The translations under genes and the position numbers were made by a program. A DNA stretch of 20,675 nucleotides from a virus, in the IMG/VR virus record IMGVR_UViG_3300030109_005280, positions 1 to 20,675 of that record; one strand, written 5' to 3'. Numbering within the stretch: the first letter of the stretch is position 1; each line of letters starts with the position of its first letter. Shown here one piece after another: positions 16,941 through 20,139 of the stretch. Below the pieces are notes generated by a model. It ran no database searches. It was not told the origin of the DNA and worked only from the letters and a program-made list of their open reading frames with translations.

Positions 16941-16964
16941 AATCGCGTAGCGATTTTATTTTCT
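16932..16964 (+). terminator. Perfect 15-bp hairpin over the VRR-NUC stop codon
   Basis: AGAAAATAAAATCGC (16932-16946) pairs fully with GCGATTTTATTTTCT (16950-16964) around a 3-nt loop. The last coding residues are inside the stem. The T-rich right arm suits termination, but it is not followed by a T run. Confidence 0.65.
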
Positions 16965-17095
16965 ACCATACCATACCATATCACCATATCACCATATTAG
17001 AATATGCTAATATTCGCGTACCATATCATATCCATATCTATATCATAATCTAATTATATTAGAATATTAGAATATACTAATGCTCCGCGGATCGT
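16965..17095. repeat. CCATA tandem and AT-palindrome cluster R1
   Basis: CCATA/CCATATCA units run from 16965, then an inverted repeat GAATAT-GCTA-ATATTC followed by GCGTACCATATCATA (17000-17030), then further TATTAGAATAT units to about 17080. The block TGCTAATATTCGC is repeated at about 17714 and 19105. Confidence 0.7.
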
Positions 17096-17130: not shown

Positions 17131-17199
17131 GGTCATAAAAACAATTCATTGGACTATCTTAGCTAGCTATGATATAATAAAAGGGTGGTTGAGGGCGGG
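17131..17199 (+). promoter_or_regulatory. Promoter P4 in duplicated 69-bp cassette with G-rich initial transcript
   Basis: TTGGAC (17149-17154), 18-nt spacer, extended -10 TGATATAAT (TATAAT at 17173-17178). The spacer and -10 contain the near-palindrome TATCTTAGCTAGCTATGATA. Four bases after the -10 comes GGGTGGTTGAGGGCGGG (17183-17199). The cassette aligns without gaps to 18908-18976 with 57 of 69 bases identical. Confidence 0.65.
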
Positions 17200-17237: not shown

Positions 17238-17266
17238 TTGACTATCCTATGAAGATAGGACATAAT
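17238..17266 (+). promoter_or_regulatory. Promoter P2 with dyad operator in the spacer
   Basis: TTGACT (17238-17243), exactly 17 nt, CATAAT (17261-17266). The spacer is ATCCTATGAAGATAGGA, containing the dyad CCTAT-N4-ATAGG. The leader then has AATGAGGAT before ATG 17300. Confidence 0.7.
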
Positions 17267-17299
17267 TAACTCACGATTAATTATTAATGAGGATTTAAA

Positions 17300-17641
17300 A
17301 TGGAATACAGAACACAGGAACAGTTTGACGAAATGTGTCTCAGTTTGATCAATGGTAATTTCAGTCAAGCTGTAGCTCAGTACGTTGAGTATGGCTTCAA
17401 CGCTCAAGACTTACGCGTCATGGTTGATAATACCCAATGGTTACATGATAACCCATACTTCAGCAGTGAAGACTTTTATCAGGTTATTGAATCAGCTAGT
17501 AAAATGAGCTATATCTATTATAAAGATGTTGAAAGTGTGATATCTCGTCTTACAGAAATTACCAAAGATAAATGCTCTACACCAAGAGATATAATAGAGG
17601 CCCACGAGTTAAGGTCTAAGCTACAAAAAATTAGTAGCTAA
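17300..17641 (+). CDS. Hypothetical protein, 113 aa, from an operator-controlled promoter
   Basis: ATG 17300 follows the AATGAGGATTTAAA leader and tandem promoters P4 and P2, and a strong terminator begins just after the stop, so this is a monocistronic unit. The product (MEYRTQEQFDEMCLSLINGN, FSQAVAQYVEYGFNAQDLRV, NPYFSSEDFYQVIESASKMS) is acidic and helical throughout, with a C-terminal helix of charged residues. No catalytic motif, signal peptide or membrane span. The dedicated control region suggests a regulatory or early host-interaction role, but the family is unknown. Confidence 0.75.
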   Translation: MEYRTQEQFDEMCLSLINGNFSQAVAQYVEYGFNAQDLRVMVDNTQWLHDNPYFSSEDFYQVIESASKMSYIYYKDVESVISRLTEITKDKCSTPRDIIEAHELRSKLQKISS

Positions 17642-17643
17642 CT

Positions 17644-17675
17644 AAAAAGCCCCGTGATCCTTGCGGGGCTTTTTT
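17644..17675 (+). terminator. Intrinsic terminator after gene 17300
   Basis: AAAAAGCCCCG (17644-17654) pairs with CGGGGCTTTTT around a 9-nt loop and ends in a T run. A textbook factor-independent terminator, partly bidirectional. Confidence 0.92.
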
Positions 17676-17775
17676 ATACCATACCATATTAGAATATTAT
17701 TATATTAGACTATGCTAATATTCGCGTACCATACCATATCATATACCATACCATATCATATCATATCATATGGAT
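17676..17775. repeat. CCATA tandem and AT-palindrome cluster R2
   Basis: Begins directly after the terminator: CCATACCATATTAGAAT, then TATTAGACTATGCTAATATT followed by CGCGTACCATACC (from 17703), then a run of CATAT(C/A) units to the CATATGG near 17772. The 17703-17743 part closely matches 16995-17030 of R1. Confidence 0.7.
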
Positions 17776-17837
17776 CGTCATCTTTATCCTTATCTATATC
17801 TTAATCTTAATCTTTATTATTTTTTAAAAAAGAAAAA

Positions 17838-17873
17838 GCGGAACAGATTAAATGAGGATAAAACCTGTTCCGC
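17838..17873 (-). terminator. Terminator of the 18794-17886 minus-strand genes with anti-leader loop
   Basis: On the minus strand GCGGAACAG, an 18-nt loop, CTGTTCCGC, then TTTTTCTTTTTT. The 9-bp stem and T run make a good terminator. The loop contains TATCCTCATT, complementary to the AATGAGGAT(A) leaders used by genes in this region. Confidence 0.75.
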
Positions 17874-17885
17874 CGTACTCGGTAA

Positions 17886-17981
17886 TTAGTCTGAATACTC
17901 CATGATTATTAATAACCCAATTCCTGCAATTATTAAACCTAAACCTATGCCTACTACTAAACCTGTTAGATATAAACTCAT
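17886..17981 (-). CDS. 31-residue single-span membrane peptide
   Basis: The ATG overlaps the previous stop (ATGA) and has AGGTGA upstream. Nearly the whole peptide is one hydrophobic, glycine-rich helix (TGLVVGIGLGLIIAGIGLLI) with a short acidic end (MEYSD). It should insert in the inner membrane. The G-x-G-x-G-x-I pattern could drive oligomerisation. Candidates are a membrane-depolarising or exclusion peptide, or a holin-like or toxic mini-protein; sequence alone cannot choose. It is the last gene before the terminator at 17838-17873. Confidence 0.65.
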   Translation of the reverse strand: MSLYLTGLVVGIGLGLIIAGIGLLIIMEYSD

Positions 17982-18205
17982 AGTTCACCTCGCTTGAATT
18001 TTGCGTAATCGCTGTTGTTTTGCTCGTTTACTTTTGCTTGTATTTTTAGATCTGTAAAGTAATTCTGAATATCAAAGTGAGCAGTCTCATACCAGTTAAC
18101 TTTCTCAACCATTCTAACTTGATCTTCTTTAAGACTATACTCATTTGGATGATCTTTAAAAAAATTGTTTATCATTGTTTTCTGTTTTTTGTTTAGTTTT
18201 CTCAT
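17978..18205 (-). CDS. Hypothetical protein, 75 aa
   Basis: Starts after an AATGAGGAAAG leader with a GNRA hairpin just upstream. Basic N-terminus (MRKLNKKQKTMINNFFKDHP), a middle with YETAHFDIQNYFTDLKIQAK and a basic C-terminus. Mostly helical and soluble. It overlaps the membrane-peptide gene by ATGA, so the two are probably made together. Not recognised. Confidence 0.7.
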   Translation of the reverse strand: MRKLNKKQKTMINNFFKDHPNEYSLKEDQVRMVEKVNWYETAHFDIQNYFTDLKIQAKVNEQNNSDYAKFKRGEL

Positions 18206-18224
18206 TATCTTTCCTCATTAAAAT

Positions 18225-18246
18225 GCGAGAGCCTTTCGGCTCTCGC
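18225..18246 (-). terminator. GAAA-loop hairpin between minus-strand genes
   Basis: On the minus strand GCGAGAGCC, loop GAAA, GGCTCTCGC, then ATTTTAATGAGGA. A perfect 9-bp stem sits about 20 nt before the ATG at 18205. The flank TTTAAACTAACC is identical to the next hairpin at 18524. Confidence 0.65.
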
Positions 18247-18502: not shown

Positions 18503-18523
18503 ATCGTTGTCCTCATTAAAAGT

Positions 18524-18545
18524 GCAAGGGCCTTTCGGCCCTTGC
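18524..18545 (-). terminator. GAAA-loop hairpin between minus-strand genes
   Basis: On the minus strand GCAAGGGCC, loop GAAA, GGCCCTTGC, then ACTTTTAATGAGGA. It has the same stem length, loop and flanks as the hairpin at 18225-18246 but a different stem sequence, which indicates that structure is conserved rather than sequence. Confidence 0.65.
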
Positions 18546-18794: not shown

Positions 18795-18860
18795 TTTAAA
18801 ATCCTCATTATGTTAACCATGTCAGTGCGTCCTTGCACTATCTTTCTTTATCCTATACTT

Positions 18861-18976: not shown

Positions 18977-18983
18977 AAGCAAA

Positions 18984-19130
18984 CCATACCATACCATACC
19001 ATACCATATCATAATATTAAAATATAATAATATGCTAATGAATGGCTGGGCCTCTATTAGTATATAAGAATATAAGAATATTCTAATATTAGAATATAAT
19101 AATATGCTAATATTCGCTTGGAAATTAATT
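18984..19130. repeat. CCATA tandem and AT-palindrome cluster R3
   Basis: About five CCATA units from 18984, then two AATATAATAATATGCTAAT blocks (about 19021 and 19093) and the perfect 20-bp palindrome ATATTCTAATATTAGAATAT at 19078-19097, ending with TGCTAATATTCGC at about 19105-19117, as in R1 and R2. Confidence 0.7.
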
Positions 19131-19141
19131 TAAAAAAGCTA

Positions 19142-19170
19142 TTGACATGATAGCTAGATAGGACTATTAT
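19142..19170 (+). promoter_or_regulatory. Promoter P3 of the ArdC-like gene
   Basis: TTGACA (19142-19147), exactly 17 nt, TATTAT (19165-19170): the best consensus match in the window. The spacer TGATAGCTAGATAGGAC carries the operator-like motif in reverse relative to P1. The leader continues to AAATGAGGAT. Confidence 0.75.
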
Positions 19171-19206
19171 GAAAGGGAATTTAAACAAAAATGAGGATCT
19201 AGAAAA

Positions 19207-20139
19207 ATGAAATACAAAAGTGAAAAACAGAAAAAATTCGTAGAAGGTAAAAAGAAAATTATTACTGATGCGATTATTGCACAATTAGATACTGTTAACG
19301 CGAATGACTGGAAAAAAAGCTGGTTTTCGCGTGGCGGTATTCCACTTAATGCAATTACTAAAAAACCTTATAACGGTGTTAACTGGTTATACCTTTCAAC
19401 ACTTAATTATAAATTTTCGCATTTCGCAGGTTATAACCAATGGACTACAGCAGGATATACTATTGCGAAGGGTGTAAAAAGTCATCCTATTTGCCTTGCA
19501 CAAATAACAGAAGATAAAAAGAAAAAAAACGCGGATGGCACGCCTTACAAATTTTGGTCGGTGCGTTGGTTTAATGTTTTCAATTGCGAACAATTAGAGC
19601 CTGAAAGTTTTGAGAGATATACAAACAAACTTGCAAAAGAAAATACTAAAAAAGTTATTCTGGAACGTGAGCCGCTGGTTGAATCTTTTATTGCTAATTG
19701 CAATATTGATACGGACTTTATTGACGGTGATAGATGCTGTTATAGTCCATCCATGAATAAGGTACAGATGCAACCAATAGAAACATTTGAAAATATCAAC
19801 GCGTATTATTCTGTATTAATGCATGAGTATACTCACGCGACAATGCACGCGGACCGTTTAAACCGTAAACCAAACGACAAACAAACACCACGCCAACAAT
19901 ACGCTTTTGAAGAATTGGTTGCGGAGTTAGGAGCGGTTTATACAATGCAAACGTTAGGTTTTTATAATGTTGAACCACGTAAAGATCACGTACAATATAT
20001 TAAAAGCTGGTTGAGTGCTTTGAGAAATAATAATGATTATATATTTCAAGCTAGCACAAAAGCTAACAACGCGGTTAACTGGATGATGGATCAGCAAACA
20101 AAAGATATTCAAACTACATTAAAGGGGGTGCAATTATGA
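19207..20139 (+). CDS. ArdC-like antirestriction protein (ssDNA-binding plus zincin metallopeptidase)
   Basis: A 310-residue two-domain protein. Residues about 15-130 form the ArdC N-terminal domain: WKKSWF (35-40), GIPLNAITKKPYNGVNWLYL (44-63), NQWTTAGYTIAKGV and WFNVFNCEQLE (121-131). The C-terminal part is a metallopeptidase-like domain with H206-E-Y-T-H210 and the downstream helix EELVAE (235-240) that supplies the third ligand, ending YIKSWLSALRNNNDYIFQAS. Plasmid ArdC binds ssDNA and protects incoming DNA from restriction. The promoter P5-P3 array and GAGGAT leader suggest strong, regulated, probably early expression. The stop overlaps a tiny membrane-peptide gene. Confidence 0.9.
   Translation: MKYKSEKQKKFVEGKKKIITDAIIAQLDTVNANDWKKSWFSRGGIPLNAITKKPYNGVNWLYLSTLNYKFSHFAGYNQWTTAGYTIAKGVKSHPICLAQITEDKKKKNADGTPYKFWSVRWFNVFNCEQLEPESFERYTNKLAKENTKKVILEREPLVESFIANCNIDTDFIDGDRCCYSPSMNKVQMQPIETFENINAYYSVLMHEYTHATMHADRLNRKPNDKQTPRQQYAFEELVAELGAVYTMQTLGFYNVEPRKDHVQYIKSWLSALRNNNDYIFQASTKANNAVNWMMDQQTKDIQTTLKGVQL

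Follow-up and report, generated by a model that had tools for sequence, protein, structure and literature searches.

Loop of a marine phage operon terminator is complementary to the leaders of surrounding accessory genes and may serve antisense feedback

In staphylococci, Shine-Dalgarno sequences are the pairing targets of C-rich loops on separate sRNAs. The phage terminator described here resembles them in having a CCUC/UCCC-type loop core aimed at the Shine-Dalgarno, and differs in being the terminator of an operon, with a match to a lineage-specific leader that runs beyond the Shine-Dalgarno core. With an ordinary Rho-independent terminator it shares a fully typical stem and U-tract, whereas its loop, 12 nt in length, is long, unstructured, conserved and matched to local leaders. 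A further comparison is offered by OppZ and CarZ of Vibrio cholerae, 3'-UTR-derived autoregulatory sRNAs which are released by RNase E, depend on Hfq and have been proven experimentally (PMC7398697). OppB was still inhibited when the terminal stem-loop of OppZ was mutated at eight positions, and the pairing region of OppZ therefore lies outside this stem-loop (PMC7398697). As in these RNAs, the operon's own 3' end in the phage would pair with translation-initiation regions of the parent mRNA and so exert negative feedback; unlike in them, the anti-leader sequence forms the loop of the terminator and matches a leader class present on both strands. In a literature search of limited scope, no paper on phage terminators with anti-Shine-Dalgarno loops came up, and such papers may exist.

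The window, by which we mean the whole stretch of DNA analysed, is a 20.7-kb virus record (20,675 nucleotides) of a marine phage. By DNA comparison, the named sequence nearest to it is the terminase gene of Pelagibacter phage HTVC023P, 71% identical over 256 bases. In the right-hand part of the window (17.2-20.2 kb), before the large terminase gene, lie small accessory genes on both strands together with an antirestriction gene that is ArdC-like by its Pfam domains, ArdcN and MPTase-PolyVal. The terminator closes a four-gene operon on the minus strand, as follows from the order upstream of it, namely a 31-aa ORF (17982-17887) and genes 18205-17978, 18502-18254 and 18794-18558. The features are these:

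17827..17837, minus strand: U-tract TTTTTCTTTTT, 3' of the stem
17838..17873, minus strand: intrinsic terminator hairpin GCGGAACAGGTT-TTATCCTCATTT-AATCTGTTCCGC, from its fold and from stem pairing in relatives
17850..17861, minus strand: 12-nt loop TTATCCTCATTT (= UUAUCCUCAUUU), complementary to AATGAGGA leaders
17887..17982, minus strand: ORF of a predicted 31-aa membrane peptide (MSLYLTGLVVGIGLGLIIAGIGLLIIMEYSD), called from sequence; last gene before the terminator
17978..18205, minus strand: operon gene, 75 aa, without Pfam match, with a AATGAGGA leader
18212..18219, minus strand: leader AATGAGGA of gene 18205, 8-nt match to the loop
18254..18502, minus strand: operon gene, 82 aa, without Pfam match; relatives found in viral contigs
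18510..18517, minus strand: leader AATGAGGA of gene 18502, 8-nt match to the loop
18558..18794, minus strand: first operon gene, 78 aa, without Pfam match
18801..18809, minus strand: leader AATGAGGAT of gene 18794, 9-nt match to the loop
18861..18889, minus strand: candidate operon promoter TGTACA-17-TATAGT, from a consensus scan only
17300-17641, plus strand: gene with leader AATGAGGAT at 17286..17294 (plus strand), 9-nt match to the loop
19207-20139, plus strand: ArdC-like gene with leader AAATGAGGAT at 19189..19198 (plus strand), 10-nt match to the loop

The hairpin has what defines a Rho-independent terminator: a stable, G+C-bearing stem followed by a U-tract, 3' of the last gene. Its stem comprises 12 bp, nine strong pairs and then G-U, U-A and U-A, and its folding energy is -19.9 kcal/mol (z = -4.6). 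The first-pass annotation had placed a minus-strand terminator with an 18-nt loop here; the terminator is indeed at this place, with a loop of 12 nt, and 18 nt results only from counting the outer 9 bp and leaving out the three pairs inside them. A role for the plus strand was rejected, as the wobble pairs turn into A-C mismatches and neither a U-tract nor a gene lies downstream. In the promoter list no promoter-like site stands directly upstream of the hairpin, and the RNA would accordingly come from the 3' UTR; the idea of an sRNA with its own promoter was dropped for this reason. Rfam gave nothing above the gathering score, its sole match being a sub-threshold rimP leader elsewhere (17625-17705).

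Complementarity of the loop to the leaders of genes 17300, 18794 and 19207, claimed in the first-pass annotation over 9-10 nt, was borne out at 9, 9 and 10 contiguous nt, respectively, and two leaders absent from that claim, those of genes 18502 and 18205, are complementary over 8 nt each. It did not hold for the full 10-mer AATGAGGATA, to which none of the window's leaders corresponds; at 19207 the matching 10 nt read AAATGAGGAT. On both strands of the window AATGAGGA occurs six times (0.80 expected; 0/100 shuffles reached six), and these sites are the five leaders and the terminator loop, nothing else; none of the roughly 30 other predicted genes of the window has such a leader. Among random 12-mers drawn from the window, about 0.1% had a complement of at least 7 nt to all five leaders, a figure that should consist mostly of the leaders' own antisense strands since these were kept in the sampling. 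Duplexes predicted between loop and leaders come to -10.3 to -12.0 kcal/mol at an opening cost of 0.5-2.4, energies to be read as upper estimates because a hairpin loop may not permit all ten pairs. Pairing of the leaders with the 16S 3' end, for which generic alphaproteobacterial sequences were assumed, is weaker at about -6 kcal/mol. The three leaders of the operon itself pair with the loop over 8-9 nt (-10.3 to -11.3 kcal/mol), so that, in the manner of OppZ and CarZ, the 3' end is complementary to the translation-initiation regions of its own operon. When loop targets were ranked across the window, all five leaders fell within the top 14, beside some G-rich coding sites.

Based on the terminator itself, the strand of its RNA, its complementarity and its presence in relatives, we infer pairing, hiding of the Shine-Dalgarno and feedback, and tentatively propose that the 3' end of the operon is an antisense feedback repressor acting through the terminator loop. 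The feature is an intrinsic terminator, that of a small phage operon built from cassettes, and its loop carries an anti-leader sequence fitting the AATGAGGA class of the surrounding accessory genes on both strands. Either free or still within the mRNA, the operon 3' end would pair by this loop with AATGAGGA leaders and conceal their weak Shine-Dalgarno, GAGG, from the ribosome, and the outcome would be negative feedback on the operon and on neighbour genes with the same leader. Pairing in cis and pairing in trans would both fit. If the proposal is true, a terminator that is obligatory anyway would also regulate, by antisense pairing, a whole class of accessory genes in the phage, the ArdC-like antirestriction gene among them.

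Relatives came from searches of viral contigs, among which only three stem types were found: type A in the window, L007 (= L005/L011) and L010 (= L006), type B in L012 (= L008) and L009, and type C in L013 (= L036). In alignment A1, with five sequences, 60/60 stem cells are paired and 6 of the 12 pairs show two-sided changes, shifted registers on the same alignment reach no more than 33-50% pairing, and only the minus-strand RNA is compatible with the G-U pairs. The relatives thus support a real minus-strand RNA element, as judged from sequence comparison. The loop is identical across types A and B (L007, L010, L012, L009). Between the window and L012, 8/24 stem positions differ and 0/12 loop positions do (P = 0.024, all positions assumed alike); keeping in mind that the flanks of these two are 87-95% identical, which puts the chance of an unchanged loop at about 1 in 5, the identical 12-nt loop is unsurprising and it is the stem that stands out. 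Type C carries more weight: alignment of its flanks is poor, yet its loop, TTACCTCATTTT, retains the core CCTCATTT (RNA CCUCAUUU), with one T lost and one gained. Averaged over its own leaders, pairing of the type C loop comes to about -9.5 kcal/mol; the A/B loop would reach -12.8 on these leaders. The loss, about 2-3 kcal/mol, has no matching change in the leaders, which we regard as weak evidence against co-evolution of loop and leaders. Uncompensated change of loop and leaders in relatives had been named beforehand as speaking against an antisense role, and the outcome is divided: the core is kept across three stem types, and the type C change goes unmatched in the leaders. No relatives were found in a plasmid search. 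Matches to the terminator pattern in genome contigs (six loci in archaeal and bacterial MAGs) were set aside as probable chance, and a leader scan of viral contigs returned mostly single, isolated occurrences in unrelated contigs.

Close behind the antisense proposal in plausibility comes an ordinary terminator whose loop derives from an inversely oriented copy of a gene leader, acquired through cassette shuffling, the complement being a by-product of shared ancestry that entails no regulation. Shared ancestry also leads one to expect leaders and terminator to occur together, the region is a mosaic of exchanged cassettes, the hairpin read on the plus strand, GATTAAATGAGGATAAAAC, is similar to leaders such as ATTATTAATGAGGATTTAAAATG over more than the core, and the pairing base lost in type C is uncompensated. 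A relic loop, however, would be expected to drift fastest, whereas compensatory changes maintain the stem and the core CCTCATTT persists even in L036, whose flanks can hardly be aligned. The earlier alternative of a decayed leader copy is accordingly retained as to copy origin; "decayed" fits poorly, given the retained core CCTCATTT and a stem in which all changes preserve pairing.

It is improbable, in our judgement, that the loop is conserved for another partner, for instance an RNA of the host or an RNA-binding protein from phage or host, with the leader complement secondary. Conservation by itself names no partner and CCUCAUUU is a plain single-stranded motif, but on this reading it would be mere chance that the loop exactly complements the leader class of its own lineage.

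The leader class belongs to the phage lineage rather than to the genes. Among AATGAGG-led genes in six loci, 30/31 continue with A to give the AATGAGGA leader, a count conditional on AATGAGG, which was the search condition. HTVC023P, the L014 contig and L002/L003 have neither the leader class nor, by model search, the terminator; the L015 type is likewise without the terminator by model search and has one leader-class site; and L039, near-identical to L013, has the leaders and ends before the terminator. Gene 17978 is found with 98% DNA identity in L002/L003 (2996-3227), which are otherwise different phages; the similarity sets in about 5 nt upstream of the start codon, and L002/L003 have the leader AAAGAGGTGAAGTA. 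The middle genes of the operon differ among relatives while leaders and terminator stay. It is from this sharing of gene 17978 without its leader, and from the swapping of gene content behind constant leaders, that we assign the class to the lineage. An HTVC023P terminator matching six leaders was rejected, its loop being T-rich and the matches read as low-complexity. In HTVC023P several genes that precede the terminase have a different leader in common, ACTAACAAA... (L040: 5850, 6568, 8078, 8934), and lineage-specific leader classes may be common in its phage group.

Antisense feedback on the operon could be extended to a phage regulon, in which the terminator loop regulates in trans every accessory gene with the lineage's standard leader; we consider this doubtful. 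Were it true, a captured cassette would join the circuit merely by placement behind the standard leader, a simple common control of swapped-in genes in mosaic phage genomes. More improbable than any of the foregoing is a role at the DNA level, with leader and loop as short homologies for cassette exchange or inversion, as the stem evolves as a minus-strand RNA helix that a DNA-only role would not need and exchange requires no complement inside a terminator loop, even if a recombination-like junction lies near the start codon of gene 17978 in comparison with L002/L003 and gene content changes among relatives while leaders stay.

Several minor observations concern the operon and its surroundings. 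The 31-aa ORF has the same position in L005/L007, L010, L008/L012 and L009, and its L013 counterpart encodes 42 aa; this small membrane-peptide ORF is always the terminator-adjacent last gene, and length cut-offs miss such an ORF. For the protein of gene 18502, a search of phages gave no relatives. Intergenic hairpins with GAAA tetraloops stand directly upstream of operon leaders (18524-18545 and 18225-18246, minus strand) and also in L007, L010, L012 and L009, inside a common spacer TTTAAACTAACC...CACTTTTAATGAGGA; their stems vary by copy (AAGGGCC, GAGAGCC, GAGGGCC), with arms that mostly match, and they are possible mRNA processing or stability elements. Between the cassettes lie AT-rich intergenic repeat islands (16960-17090, 17680-17770 and 18980-19120; ACCATATC..., ATTAGAATATTAGAATATGCTAATATTCGC), present in L013 as well, which are possibly sites of cassette exchange. 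Finally, an operator-like near-palindrome (e.g. TTGACTATCCTATGAAGATAGGACATAAT) lies between the -35 and -10 of the following cassette promoters, which suggests one repressor common to the accessory genes:

17150-17178, plus strand: cassette promoter with near-palindrome
17238-17266, plus strand: cassette promoter with near-palindrome
18889-18861, minus strand: cassette promoter with near-palindrome
19142-19170, plus strand: cassette promoter with near-palindrome
about 7053-7080 in L013: cassette promoter with near-palindrome
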